DNA of 64,000 nucleotides from Microbulbifer variabilis (GTDB lineage: Bacteria; Pseudomonadota; Gammaproteobacteria; Pseudomonadales; Cellvibrionaceae). Positions 21,343 to 26,704 of the stretch are shown here, one piece after another. Positions within the stretch are counted from its first letter, which is position 1, and every line of letters begins with the position of its first letter. The stretch is from the NCBI RefSeq assembly GCF_023716485.1, contig NZ_CP092418.1, positions 3,331,001-3,395,000 on the forward strand, in the 5' to 3' direction. Below the pieces are notes generated by a model. That model did not search any database. It saw nothing but the letters and a program-made list of their open reading frames with translations, and was not told the DNA's origin. The translations under genes and the position numbers were made by a program.

Positions 21343-23895
21343 TTAAAAGCTATTACCCAGGGTAAACTGGAACACTTCCGTCTCATCATCCTCGTTTTCC
21401 TTCAAGGCTTTAGCCAAACTGAAAGTCAATGGTCCAAAACCGGTAACCCATGTCAAACCAATGCCCGCGGAAACATTCATTTTACCGAAGTCCACATCGT
21501 AACAGTTGATCTGGGTTTCATCACAACTGGTATCAAAGACGTTACCCGCATCAACAAAGAAGGCAGACTGCAGAGAGCGCTGATCTTTGATAAACGGCAG
21601 CGGGAAAATAACCTCGGCACTACCTTCTACTAAGATATTGCCACCAAAGGGGTCGGCATCACCGTTCTGACGGATATCCAGGTTCCCATTCTCATCTATC
21701 TGATAGCAGTTTTTTGTAATGCTTTCACCATCGGTTGCACAAGGAAGTTGAGTATAAAACTCTGCAGGAGTGGAACGGGGGCCCAGTGTATTACGCTTGA
21801 AACCGCGCACAGAGCCAAAACCACCGGCATAGAAATTTTCAAAGAAAGGCAGTTGATCGAGATCACCGTAGCCATCCCCGTAACCCAGGCGCGTACGCAG
21901 ACGTAGCGTCAAACTCTTCGTTAGGGGGCGGAAATACTGACCAGTATAAATAAATTTGTAGTATTCAAGATCACTGCCGGGCACGGTAAATTCTGCGGAG
22001 AAATTCTGGGATGCCCCGCGAGTCGCCAATATACCGCGGTTCAAAGTGGAGCGGGCATAAGAAGCTGTCAAAGCCAAGTTATTAAACGCATCACCGTAAC
22101 GATCGATAAAACCATCTGCCGAAGTATTAAACTGGTTCTGATCAATCATCATTGCAAGATCATTGGCCACATCATTATTGAGATCTGCAACAATCGTCTC
22201 GGCATCAATGAGTGTCACCCCCTCACGAGCGGTGTCATCCAAAAGAGATGGGCTGGATTGGATTTCCTGTACAGAACCACTCGAGGCCGAGAGCTCCAAA
22301 TGACTGAAATTAACATTCAGTCCCACACGGGAAATTTCTGAAACCGGGTAGCCAAAGCTAACACCACCACCATAACTAGTCGTGTTGTAGTCCGACAGGT
22401 TGACCTCAGAGTAGTCATTTTCCCTATAAAAAACGTTAAACCCGCGGCTCACACCGTCAGGTGTAAAGTAAGGGTCAAGATAGGAAAAGTTCAGTGCGGT
22501 CTGGTAGGTAGAGACGTTTAAACCTATACCTACCTGCTTGCCGGTACCCAGCCAGTTATTTTCCTGGATATTACCGCCGAGTACCAAGCCGCTACTCTGT
22601 GCCCAGCCGATAGTGCCACCAATAGAGCCTGAAGGTTGCTCCTCTACGGTATATTCCACATCGATCTGGTCGGAAGTACCAGGCACCTCTGCAGTTTCTA
22701 CTTCCACCTCTTTAAAGTAACCGAGGCGTTCCAGGCGCACCTTGGATTGCTCAATTCTTGCGGAGGAGGCCGAGGCAGATTCCATCTGACGCATTTCACG
22801 GCGCAACACCTCATCGGCAGTACGGGTGTTACCACGGAAATTGATTCGGCGCACATAGGCGCGCTTACCCGGGTTGATAAAGAAGGTAATTTTTACCGTA
22901 TTCTCTTCTTTATTGGGTTCGGGAATGCCATTCACCTCGGCAAAGGTATAACCTTCATTGCCCAGACGCTTGGTAATATAGTCAGACGTGGTGGTCATCC
23001 GAATCTGGGAGAAAGTCTGCCCTTCACGCACCAACAGTAAGCGCTTGATTTCCTCTTCCGAAACCACCGGGTCGCCGGCGAGATCCACCTCACTGACGGT
23101 GTAAACATTCCCCTCTCTCACATTGACTGTGATAAAAACACTCTGCTTGTCTGGGCTCAGGGAAACCTGAGTGGATTCTATTTGAAAATCCAGATAGCCG
23201 CGGTCGAGATAGTAAGACTCTAGGCGCTCCAGGTCACCAGTGAGTTTCTCACGGGAATATTTGTCATCGCTGCGCAGCCAGGACAACCAACCTGTGGTCT
23301 GCAGCTCGAAAATTTCTGCCAATTCTTCGTCGGAAAATGCCTCGTTACCCACAACATTGATGTGCTTGATAGCCGCAACAGAGCCCTCGTCGACGATAAC
23401 CCGCAGCTCGACCTGGTTGCGTGGCAATTCTTTCACTTCGGTCTTAACACTTGCACCATAGCGCCCCTGTGCCACATATTGCCGCTCAAGCTCCTGGGCG
23501 AGCCCCTCCAGGGTTGCACGCTTAAAGATCTGCCCCTCGGATAAACCGTTATCCTTCATGCCCTTGAGCAAATCTTCGGTGGCGATGGCCTTATTACCGC
23601 TGATCTCAATCTTGGAAATTGCTGGACGCTCGCGAACAGTGACCACCAGAACACCATTTTCACGGCCGATTTGGATATCTTCAAAGTAGCCGGTGCGGAA
23701 CAGTGCCCGGGTAGCGCTCTGGATTTCCACGGATTCAATTTCATCACCCACTCGCACGGGAAGGGCAGAGAAGACTGTACCGGCAGAGACGCGTTGCAAT
23801 CCTTCCACGCGAATATCATTGACCACGAACGACTGCGCTATTGCACTTAAAGGCAACATCAGGCCGAGGGAGGCCGCTTTGAGGAAATCTTTCAT
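21343..23895 (-). CDS. bamA: Outer-membrane protein assembly factor BamA
   Basis: BamA is the central channel of the BAM complex that inserts beta-barrel proteins in the outer membrane. It has a signal peptide (cleavage near SAIAQ at ~20) and five POTRA domains up to about residue 425. A 16-stranded barrel follows, ending in FQFTLGNSF with the terminal phenylalanine expected of outer-membrane barrels. The barrel lid motif region VRGF is present (GGFGSVRGFKRNTLGP). At 850 residues it is longer than E. coli BamA (810). Part of the excess lies in an acidic insertion around residues 545-600 (LNNDVANDLAMMIDQN), probably an extracellular loop. A closely related barrel-less gene lies directly upstream. 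Confidence 0.98.
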   Translation of the reverse strand: MKDFLKAASLGLMLPLSAIAQSFVVNDIRVEGLQRVSAGTVFSALPVRVGDEIESVEIQSATRALFRTGYFEDIQIGRENGVLVVTVRERPAISKIEISGNKAIATEDLLKGMKDNGLSEGQIFKRATLEGLAQELERQYVAQGRYGASVKTEVKELPRNQVELRVIVDEGSVAAIKHINVVGNEAFSDEELAEIFELQTTGWLSWLRSDDKYSREKLTGDLERLESYYLDRGYLDFQIESTQVSLSPDKQSVFITVNVREGNVYTVSEVDLAGDPVVSEEEIKRLLLVREGQTFSQIRMTTTSDYITKRLGNEGYTFAEVNGIPEPNKEENTVKITFFINPGKRAYVRRINFRGNTRTADEVLRREMRQMESASASSARIEQSKVRLERLGYFKEVEVETAEVPGTSDQIDVEYTVEEQPSGSIGGTIGWAQSSGLVLGGNIQENNWLGTGKQVGIGLNVSTYQTALNFSYLDPYFTPDGVSRGFNVFYRENDYSEVNLSDYNTTSYGGGVSFGYPVSEISRVGLNVNFSHLELSASSGSVQEIQSSPSLLDDTAREGVTLIDAETIVADLNNDVANDLAMMIDQNQFNTSADGFIDRYGDAFNNLALTASYARSTLNRGILATRGASQNFSAEFTVPGSDLEYYKFIYTGQYFRPLTKSLTLRLRTRLGYGDGYGDLDQLPFFENFYAGGFGSVRGFKRNTLGPRSTPAEFYTQLPCATDGESITKNCYQIDENGNLDIRQNGDADPFGGNILVEGSAEVIFPLPFIKDQRSLQSAFFVDAGNVFDTSCDETQINCYDVDFGKMNVSAGIGLTWVTGFGPLTFSLAKALKENEDDETEVFQFTLGNSF

Positions 23896-23946
23896 CTACT
23901 AATTCCGAGTGTTTTTATTCGCAATCCAGGAGTTACAGCGCTTTAT

Positions 23947-25236
23947 TCAGCGCCCAGCTCCCCCGGAACCTGAGGGTTGCCCCTCTACCTTGTAATCGAC
24001 ATCAACCCGTTCTGAGTTCCCGGGTACCTTGACCGTTTCAACTTTCACCACCTTCAAGTAACCAAGTCGCTCAAGGCGAACTTTAGATTGCTCAATAAGA
24101 GCCGAAGAAGCTAAAGCGGACTCCATTTGGCGCAACTCTCGCCGCAAAACTTCATCTGCCGTGCGAGTGTTTCCACGAAAAGTAATACGCCTAACGTAGG
24201 TGCGCTTGCCAGGGTCAATAAAGAAAGTGATTTTTACCGTGTTCTCTTCTTTATTGGCTTCTGGAATACCGTTTACTTCGGCAAAAGCGTAACCCTTATT
24301 GCCCAAACGCTTGGAAATATAGTCTGAAGTCGTTGTCATCCTGACCTGGGAGAACGTCTGCCCTTCACGCACTAGCAGCAAGCGCTTAATTTCTTCCTCT
24401 GGAACGACTGGGTCTCCAGCAAGTTCTACTTCACTAACAGTGTAAACATCACCCTCAATCACGTTAACAGTGATGAAAACACTCTTCTTGTCCGGCCCAA
24501 GAGATACTTGGGTAGAGTCGATCTGGAAGTCGAGATATCCGCGATCGAGATAATAAGATTCAAGACGCTCCAGGTCACCAGTGAGCTTCTCACGGGAGTA
24601 CTTATCATCACTGCGCAACCAAGAGAGCCAGCCAGTGGTTTTAAGCTCAAAAATTTCTCCGAGCTCTTGATCTGAAAAGACGCGATTCCCTACGATGTTG
24701 ATATGTTTAATCGCAGCAACGGTCCCTTCCTCGACAATAACCTTCAATTCAACCTGATTGCGTGGTAACTCTTTAACTTCTGCTTGGACGCTAGCGCCAT
24801 AGCGCCCCTGTGCCACATACTGGCGCTCAAACTCCCGGGTCAACCCTTTGAGGGTCGAGCGCTTTAAAATCTGTCCCTCGGCCAGACCGTAATCCTTCAG
24901 CGCCTTTAGCAGATCTTCCGAGGCAATCGCCTTGTTTCCTGATATATCTATCTTAGATATGGCTGGCCGCTCTCTCACGTTAACAACTAAAACGCTACTT
25001 TCACGACCGATCTGAATATCCTCAAAATAACCGGTTTGAAACAGTTCTCGGGTCGCCCCCTGAATATCCGCAAGCTCAATTTCATCGCCAACCCGCACCG
25101 GAAGAGCTGAAAAAACGGTGCCTGCAGAAACACGCTGCAAACCTTCTACACGAATATCGCTGAGAACGAATGACTGAGCTAAAGCGCTGAGAGGCAGCAC
25201 CAAGCCCAGGGATATCGCTAACAGCCAATACTTCAT
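23947..25236 (-). CDS. Secreted BamA paralogue with POTRA domains only (no barrel)
   Basis: The 429-residue protein aligns without gaps to the N-terminal half of the neighbouring BamA; by eye about 70 residues differ over 423, roughly 83% identity. It has its own signal peptide (MKYWLLAISLGLVLPLSALA) and all five POTRA domains. It then ends just inside the first barrel strand with QPSGSGGAGR, where BamA continues QPSGSIGGTIGW. So it should be a soluble periplasmic protein. The block around residues 195-260 is nearly identical in protein but differs at many third codon positions, so the gene is not a fresh copy and not decaying. The 11 bases TCGGAATTAGT precede both start codons, showing that the duplication included the ribosome-site region. 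Function unknown; binding of BAM lipoproteins or client proteins is inference. Confidence 0.9.
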   Translation of the reverse strand: MKYWLLAISLGLVLPLSALAQSFVLSDIRVEGLQRVSAGTVFSALPVRVGDEIELADIQGATRELFQTGYFEDIQIGRESSVLVVNVRERPAISKIDISGNKAIASEDLLKALKDYGLAEGQILKRSTLKGLTREFERQYVAQGRYGASVQAEVKELPRNQVELKVIVEEGTVAAIKHINIVGNRVFSDQELGEIFELKTTGWLSWLRSDDKYSREKLTGDLERLESYYLDRGYLDFQIDSTQVSLGPDKKSVFITVNVIEGDVYTVSEVELAGDPVVPEEEIKRLLLVREGQTFSQVRMTTTSDYISKRLGNKGYAFAEVNGIPEANKEENTVKITFFIDPGKRTYVRRITFRGNTRTADEVLRRELRQMESALASSALIEQSKVRLERLGYLKVVKVETVKVPGNSERVDVDYKVEGQPSGSGGAGR

Positions 25237-25348
25237 ACTAATTCCGAACCGCTTCTGATAAGAGCAGAGGTTCCCAAGGTAACCGGCACCGCGCTCACTC
25301 TTAAAATCTACTCACTCCAAACGCCATAGGAAAATGCACTCCAGGAGG

Positions 25349-26704
25349 CTACAAACGTAAAATATCGTTATAAAGCGCCAACCCCATAATACAAAGCACT
25401 AAGGCCATACCTACTTGTAAACCGATCACCTGCACTCTCTCAGACACAGGAGAACCCTTGACCGCCTCAATACCGTAGTAGAGAAGGTGACCACCATCGA
25501 GTACCGGAATGGGTAACAGATTGAGTACACCGAGACTGATACTAAGCAGAGCTAAAAGCGACAGGAAAGACTGCCACCCCCTCTCTGCGGAAGTACCCGC
25601 CACTTTAGCAATGGTGATGGGGCCACTCAAGTTTTTGGTCGAAAGTTGACCAAAAATCAATTTCTTCAAGCTGTTCAGAGTGAACAGTGTTTTGTCCCAA
25701 GTCTCTTGCACCCCCTGAGAAAGAGCGCCAGCTACACCGTAGTGGAAAACTCGTACGCGATCCTCGGGCCAGCGCTCGGTGACGGGCTGTACGCCGATCT
25801 GGCCGACACGCTCACCACTGTCGAGCGTCACCTGCGCCGGCGTAACCGGCAGGGTCAACCGTTGCCCCTGGCGTTCAACTTCCACCTGAAGGGGCTCGCC
25901 TGCACGAGCGCGCACATACTGACTCCACTCTTCCCAACCGGAAAAAATTCGCCCGTCGGTAGCCACAATCTTATCGCCCGCACGCAGCCCCGCTGCACTA
26001 GCAGCGCTACCCTCCACAACCTTATGCAACGTCATACTAATGGGCGGCGTCCAGAGACCGAGGCCAATCTCCCCCAATGGGTCAGGGACTTCCTGCCCTG
26101 CGAGCCAACGGTCGATATCAGCCGCCATATGATATTCGAGGTTAGAGTCCGGGTAGCGCACTGAGAATTCTATAGAGCCACTGTCCCCCAAACGGTTAGC
26201 CAAGCGCCAGTTGAGGGCTTGCCAAGTGGGTGTAGCTTCGCCATCCACCGCGATAATTTCCTGCCCGGACTCCAATCCCGCAGCTTCAGCAATACTTCCA
26301 GGCTTGACGGAATCTACGACAGGCACCGGACCCGCCGTGCCCCCCATAAAGACAATCCAAAACAGTACAATTGCCAACAGGAAGTTAGCTGCGGGACCCG
26401 CTGCAGCAATCGCTATACGCGCCCAAACACTCTTTCGGTTAAATGCCTGATTCAGCTCATGAGCGGCGACAGGTCCCTCCCGCTCATCTAGCATTTTGAC
26501 ATAGCCACCAAGGGGAATTGCTGAGATAGCAAACTCAGTGCCGTGCCGGTCATAGCGAGAGAAAAGGCGGCGGCCAAAGCCGACAGAAAAACGCAGCACC
26601 TTGACCCCACAGAGCCGTGCTACGAGAAAGTGTCCAAACTCGTGGAAGGAAACCAGTATACCGAGGGCTACCAAGGCCCAGATTACCGTCTGAATCAGAT
26701 CCAT
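25349..26704 (-). CDS. rseP: Site-2 intramembrane protease RseP
   Basis: RseP is the zinc metalloprotease that makes the second cut of the anti-sigma factor RseA in the envelope stress response, and also clears signal-peptide remnants. The HEFGH zinc motif lies at residues 21-25 in the first membrane segment. Two PDZ domains follow (about residues 115-200 and 205-290), and the LDGGH motif (PIPVLDGGHLLYYGIEA) supplies the third ligand near the C-terminus. At 451 residues it matches E. coli (450). It precedes the barrel-less bamA paralogue with a 112-base gap. Confidence 0.97.
   Translation of the reverse strand: MDLIQTVIWALVALGILVSFHEFGHFLVARLCGVKVLRFSVGFGRRLFSRYDRHGTEFAISAIPLGGYVKMLDEREGPVAAHELNQAFNRKSVWARIAIAAAGPAANFLLAIVLFWIVFMGGTAGPVPVVDSVKPGSIAEAAGLESGQEIIAVDGEATPTWQALNWRLANRLGDSGSIEFSVRYPDSNLEYHMAADIDRWLAGQEVPDPLGEIGLGLWTPPISMTLHKVVEGSAASAAGLRAGDKIVATDGRIFSGWEEWSQYVRARAGEPLQVEVERQGQRLTLPVTPAQVTLDSGERVGQIGVQPVTERWPEDRVRVFHYGVAGALSQGVQETWDKTLFTLNSLKKLIFGQLSTKNLSGPITIAKVAGTSAERGWQSFLSLLALLSISLGVLNLLPIPVLDGGHLLYYGIEAVKGSPVSERVQVIGLQVGMALVLCIMGLALYNDILRL

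Follow-up and report, generated by a model that had tools for sequence, protein, structure and literature searches.

The locus described here raises a simple question: why should a bacterium keep, directly upstream of its bamA gene, a second gene which resembles bamA over the part encoding the periplasmic POTRA domains but lacks the part for the outer-membrane barrel? Such a frame may be a broken copy, or it may be a gene in its own right, and then one has to ask how it arose and what its product could do. The gene is located in the window, that is, the whole stretch of 64,000 nucleotides from Microbulbifer variabilis that was analysed.

Structure of the locus and of the predicted protein

The features of the locus are compiled in Table 1. 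The paralogue is situated between rseP and bamA, 51 nt upstream of the latter, and by order comparison the arrangement agrees with rseP-bamA-skp of E. coli K-12.

Table 1. Features of the rseP-bamA region, numbered from the first nucleotide of the window
Feature	Position	Strand	Remarks
rseP, upstream neighbour	25349..26704	-	identified by sequence and position
rseP-paralogue spacer, 112 nt	25237..25348	-	diverged first leader copy beside the paralogue ATG
barrel-less bamA paralogue	23947..25236	-	429 aa, ATG start; putative signal peptide and five POTRA domains
second bamA leader copy	23896..23963	-	aligned with the single-copy bamA leader of G009 up to the ATG
full-length bamA, parent gene	21343..23895	-	850 aa

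The earlier note on this DNA had described a reading frame that aligns to the POTRA region of BamA without gaps and adjoins bamA. This was borne out, as the 429 aa of the paralogue align ungapped to residues 1–426 of its own BamA, with 83% identity. Within codons 1–422 the two genes differ at 272 codons, 202 of these differences being synonymous and 70 nonsynonymous, with dN 0.097 and dS 1.7 (YN00; in the NG86 calculation dS was saturated and gave no value). When the single contig of the window genome is searched with the paralogue, just two genes match, the paralogue itself and bamA. The N-terminus of the protein is hydrophobic and has retained the ...LSALA-QS ending (the signal peptide was judged by eye). 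The description of the other end had to be revised: the note let the protein run a little way into the first barrel strand, but homology to bamA ceases at about codon 424–426, and leader-derived codons follow, the last approximately five codons and the stop matching the duplicated bamA leader. A chance reading frame is excluded, because the paralogue is carried by seven of 48 genomes of the genus, including the single-contig genome of the window.

Domain searches agree with the idea of a barrel-less BamA paralogue with all POTRA domains. Five POTRA stretches were found (Pfam PF07244, 1.1e-68) and no Omp85 barrel (Pfam PF01103), whereas the adjoining bamA product has both the POTRA domains and PF01103 (297.9 bits). 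An AlphaFold2 model of the 429-aa form (45 sequences; pLDDT 81, pTM 0.56) displays the POTRA pattern five times, with a helix at residues 2–17 and a short, disordered tail (residues 421–429, pLDDT below 50), and a Foldseek search with this model returned E. coli BamA as the best PDB matches. In two carriers, G044 and G030, a TAG at codon 410 removes the last strand of POTRA5 and leaves this domain incomplete; three POTRA5 strands are called in the 429-aa model and none in that of the 409-aa form.

The protein is homologous to BamA yet is not a BamA, because the defining barrel is absent. The NCBIfam BamA model TIGR03303 nevertheless gives it 497 bits against a curated cut-off of 297.15, although just 403 of 741 model positions are covered; this cut-off is thus blind to the barrel. 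Annotation pipelines label members of this protein family (database clusters P0002–P0004) "outer membrane protein assembly factor BamA", since the cut-off is cleared without a barrel. Counts of BamA duplicates can be misled by such labels.

Distribution

All 48 genomes of the genus Microbulbifer gave a match. Seven of them (G000, G045, G031, G029, G035, G044 and G030, the last two with the TAG near the end) show a pair of neighbouring matches, first a short frame and then full-length bamA, and four of these carriers are single contigs (G000, G029, G030, G035). The other 41 genomes have one match each; among these, G034 is not judgeable, its match starting at a contig end. Two loci, L003 and L004, which correspond to the carriers G045 and G044, contain both genes together among 80 of 160 confirmed loci. 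The check proposed in the earlier note, to look for barrel-less BamA genes between rseP and bamA in relatives, has therefore turned them up in seven of 48 genomes. The note had also envisaged that the relatives might possess a full-length second bamA which is truncated in this strain alone. No full-length second bamA was seen at the site of the paralogue among the 48 genomes (the G034 match lying at a contig end), and the barrel-less form is shared by seven.

Two observations on BamA itself may be added. L003 and L004 are both titled Microbulbifer variabilis (SaN7-12 and ATCC 700307), but their bamA POTRA stretches are as far apart as dS ~1.0, so one of the labels may be wrong. Full-length BamA frames range from 849 to 878 aa across the genus (the contig-end match of G034 left out), a variation that sits in the barrel part, since the POTRA stretch aligns almost gap-free.

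At the family level, 143 of 144 genomes gave a match and at least ten gave two, these being the seven carriers plus G074, G076 and G124; no linked case beyond the seven carriers was found among the matches listed for the 144 genomes. From the order 390 genomes were drawn, with at least 12 having more than one match at E 1e-20; the matches listed, which are part of the total from a search scoring part of the candidates, belong to the carriers G000, G029 and G031 and nine other genomes. The paralogue arrangement was found in none of these 12 multi-match non-carriers (nine from the order plus G074, G076 and G124). Judged from the matches, eight of them are apparently genes that a contig end or a frameshift has interrupted, and the second match of G124 is weak (22% identity). 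Two full-length bamA copies on different contigs are present in G076, G346 and G498; G076 is listed with 6% contamination, a possible cause of its second copy.

In the protein database the family consists of five 90% clusters, P0001–P0005, with 1, 2, 6, 2 and 2 members and at least 80% identity, two of the five being 409 aa long. The next protein follows at 71% identity (best 120 of 1807 matches; 7996 candidates scored). Eight of ten other short matches continue into barrel strands. The remaining two, P0088 and P0110 (419 and 422 aa), stop where POTRA5 borders on the barrel, on contigs of 7,398 and 25,916 bases; these ends may reflect a contig edge or an independent barrel-less BamA. Among plasmids, 71 records match, all below 60% identity, and 16 of 20 among the matches listed are annotated as bamA.

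Origin by partial duplication

In single-copy relatives and in the seven carriers alike, bamA is preceded by the same conserved leader. The last codons of the paralogue consist of the upstream part of this leader (GGGGA.CTGGGCGCT), a match which is clear against G009, whose leader agrees at 14 of 15 bases, and less clear against G041. Of the second leader copy in the window, 17 nt at the upstream end supply the paralogue with its last codons and stop, and the remainder is the 51-nt spacer before bamA. The likeness of the first leader copy is clearest in G030 and G044; in the window genome it extends over the last ~10 nt only. A single tandem duplication explains why leader and POTRA-only gene are followed by leader and bamA. 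As judged from these alignments, it is a partial tandem duplication of the bamA leader plus ~424 codons, and the truncation arose together with the gene; the barrel need never have belonged to the duplicated copy. An ancestor belonging to a subclade of Microbulbifer would have undergone this event and so have acquired a second gene consisting of the POTRA region alone. Descent from a full-length second bamA was considered and rejected, as the leader follows directly after codon ~424 and no remnant of a barrel is present.

Selection on the coding sequence

In pairwise comparisons between carriers (YN00, 21 pairs, 408 codons) dN/dS is 0.065–0.157 for the paralogue versus 0.006–0.046 for the POTRA part of bamA (for two bamA pairs, NG86 gave no dS value). 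The paralogue is the less constrained of the two genes in 21 of 21 pairs, with comparable synonymous divergence. The first 409 codons are intact in all seven paralogues, without stop or gap relative to bamA, whereas neutral simulations at 0.1 changes per site gave 3.4 stops and left 2.9% of the runs stop-free, and at 0.3 changes per site 8.1 stops and 0.1%. The signs of a pseudogene (dN/dS near 1, stops, frameshifts) were not found, with the partial exception of the TAG at codon 410 in G044 and G030. Between these two genomes the tail behind the TAG has decayed, differing in frame and sequence, and the preceding 409 codons are constrained (dN/dS 0.152). Purifying selection maintains the paralogue as a coding gene.

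Sites which are invariant in 24 bamA genes and altered in at least one paralogue amount to 14 of 54 in POTRA1, 16 of 64 in POTRA2, 12 of 71 in POTRA3, 17 of 58 in POTRA4 and 13 of 55 in POTRA5. Each of the five domains is under strong, though relaxed, constraint. Altered sites seem to crowd in POTRA2 (6 of 19 lie at E. coli positions 111–137; P 0.0008 for this stretch), but the accumulation was not significant in a permutation allowing all stretches (0.055). Gene conversion by bamA as the cause of the intact frame is unlikely: the paralogues cluster together, exact runs shared by paralogue and bamA measure 16–31 nt, and the own bamA was the closest in 28 of 266 windows, in a test which sets it against the best of six others and so leans against "own".

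The gene is also dispensable, because it is absent from two genomes inside the clade, G009 and G021, where the rseP-bamA spacer measures just 115 and 118 nt.

Phylogeny and probable exchange between lineages

In a tree of 32 rows (seven paralogues, 24 bamA genes of the genus and one outgroup) the paralogues form one clade (support 100/97; 98% of 200 bootstrap trees). The carriers fall into lineages A (G000, G045, G031), B (G029, G035) and C (G044, G030). The paralogue tree unites A and B at 100/100 with C apart, whereas a tree of neighbouring genes (five segments, 17 genomes) unites A and C at 99/99 with B outside and requires three changes of paralogue presence.

Between A and B the paralogue shows, at four-fold sites, a distance of 0.45 (0.40–0.50), compared to 0.61 for the POTRA part and 0.60 for the barrel of bamA, 0.67 for dxr, 0.65 for lpxD, 0.565 for rseP and 0.56 for skp, and its interval overlaps that of skp only. 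Between A and C it lies at 0.57, inside the range of the neighbours (0.47–0.61), and between B and C at 0.53, slightly under all of them (0.54–0.63). A-B identity exceeds A-C identity in nine of nine windows of the paralogue, in two of eight of bamA and in six of ten starting in rseP, where the excess is mostly small except in the window containing the spacer. From tree, four-fold distances and windows taken together, the paralogue was probably transferred between lineages A and B, with the caveats that the tree is rooted by bamA only and that the sites are near saturation. Counting against a transfer, the paralogue distance within C is 0.36, below all six neighbours (0.46–0.56), which is not explained by an A-B exchange; it may reflect another exchange or a slower synonymous rate.

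Conservation of BAM contact residues

The residues aligned to the BamD contacts E373 and R366 of E. coli BamA are the same in seven of seven paralogues, as are those aligned to D241, V245 and L247, which we take to be the BamB side. At the position of D399, five paralogues have K, and at D401, two; at E123, Q is found in 24 of 24 bamA genes of the genus and Q, E, H or R in the paralogues. On the partner's side, BamD residues R94, R97, Y184, Y185 and R197 are kept in nine of nine genomes (the carriers plus G009 and G021). The residues of a BamD-binding POTRA array, i.e. the E373 and R366 equivalents together with R197 and Y184/Y185 of the genome's own BamD, are thus present.

The E373-R197 salt bridge has been described, E373K being lethal (PMC6529637), and the contact between BamA and BamD comprises two sites, with E123, also written as E127, given as one contact residue (PMC11592675). 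SurA touches POTRA1, 2 and 4 (PMC9177699), and POTRA1-3 have been proposed as support for a Sec-BAM bridge and for SurA docking (PMC12772190). From the kept residues and these published contacts we infer that the soluble array shares the periplasmic partners of BamA. That BamD binding should be the sole role is hard to reconcile with the 409-aa forms: a simple model of POTRA5 binding BamD is weakened in these two genomes, where the last POTRA5 strand is missing.

A separate barrel-only partner was not found by PF01103 in 11 genomes. Two matches were obtained in ten of these and one in G041; they are bamA and a frame of 604–673 aa, presumably TamA, which occurs also where the paralogue is absent. 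Nor was a second BamD detected, with one match above the cut-off per genome in 11 of 11. The Microbulbifer BamD frames (L132–L140) measure 319 aa from stop to stop compared to 245 aa for E. coli BamD, and a longer terminus is possible. Promoter and terminator scans gave nothing above shuffled sequences.

Weighing the explanations

Since selection preserves the gene, it is probably a working partner or regulator and not a broken copy. We consider it an evenly balanced proposition that the paralogue is a tandem-duplicated, soluble POTRA protein kept by selection and acting in trans in outer-membrane protein (OMP) assembly. Its secretion, folding in vivo, partners and direction of effect are what we infer. 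Once secreted, it would form a POTRA array free in the periplasm without any anchor, and could use the ordinary POTRA surfaces for contacts to BamD and BamB, for docking of SurA or Sec, and for beta-augmentation of nascent OMPs; it might then buffer nascent OMPs and chaperones, or tune the number of BamD/BamB units on BamA. A more specific version, in which a soluble five-POTRA protein exchanged between Microbulbifer lineages is a dedicated trans regulator or docking scaffold of BAM (BamD/BamB, SurA, Sec-BAM bridge), is put forward tentatively, as slightly short of balanced.

The same retained contact residues, despite loss of the barrel, would suit a decoy, serving regulation or protection, which either titrates BamD/BamB or SurA off BamA or soaks up some toxin or inhibitor that attacks POTRA domains in the periplasm; patchy presence and probable transfer also fit a gene that is useful only at times. 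Titration of an essential complex should, however, come at a cost, the domain that binds BamD is incomplete in the 409-aa forms, and neither an attacker nor a regulator was found, so that we regard a decoy as unlikely. Relaxed constraint, the absence from G009 and G021 and the shortening in G044 and G030 could be understood if the gene were a slowly decaying duplicate under residual constraint, or one whose misfolded product is toxic and whose bad changes are purged until deletion. Yet such harm would be ended immediately by an early stop or by the two copies recombining, distant lineages have nevertheless retained the frame, and dN/dS is still as low as 0.095 in recent pairs such as G045-G031; we give this explanation a rather small probability.

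An effect in cis, with the duplicated stretch (second leader, spacing) mattering for bamA transcription or translation and the protein being of little importance, would be in line with the position inside the operon and the leader copy carried there. Against this, dN/dS of 0.065–0.157 shows the amino acids to be under selection, and 41 of 48 genomes of the genus (including G034 with its match at a contig end) manage with a single match, which makes it improbable. Full-length bamA duplicates do exist elsewhere, in G346, G498 and perhaps G076 and, as described in PMC4104836, in Pseudomonas; even so, the recurrence in seven genomes, four of them single contigs, and the leader directly behind codon ~424 without barrel remnant render a remnant of such a copy, or an assembly artefact, extremely improbable.

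Relation to known systems and implications

The paralogue is homologous to the POTRA1-5 part of the Omp85 protein BamA over residues 1–426, with the same five domains in the same operon; what it lacks is the beta-barrel, and with it the outer-membrane anchor and the insertase. BamK of Klebsiella (PMC13059784) and the BamA duplicates of Pseudomonas (PMC4104836) likewise are paralogues that arose by duplication, each in one species group. In the passages dealing with them they are treated as BamA proteins, BamK being able to replace BamA, whereas the Microbulbifer protein is the periplasmic part only; it does not belong with BamK, as there is no complete second copy. The soluble BamA/YaeT POTRA constructs in crystal structures (3efc, 2qcz) are similar as detached arrays folding without a barrel, but these were made in the laboratory and the Microbulbifer paralogue is a natural, conserved gene. 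The "noNterm" Omp85 proteins, as far as PMC4104836 describes them, are also cut to one half and are its mirror image, a barrel without POTRA domains. A barrel-less, POTRA-only or soluble natural BamA was not found described, in Microbulbifer or elsewhere, in the open-licence literature, in agreement with the earlier note, which knew of none; nor is any such protein mentioned in the passages available from an Omp85 survey (PMC4104836) and from a review of BAM dated 2026 (PMC13067283).

Removal of POTRA1-3 caused a modest loss of catalysis in vitro, and deletion of POTRA3 was lethal in cells (PMC12772190). The role of POTRA1-3 apart from the barrel is disputed, and a natural, conserved gene for the detached array offers a ready test. 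One partial tandem duplication can, as it appears here, spin a lasting soluble partner off an essential assembly factor. If the proposed function in trans is true, BamA itself would have given rise to a periplasmic factor of OMP assembly of a new kind, and the job of the POTRA domains would be separable from that of the barrel. In some marine Microbulbifer, the barrel-less paralogue probably encodes a functional soluble protein that assists or regulates the assembly of the outer membrane.
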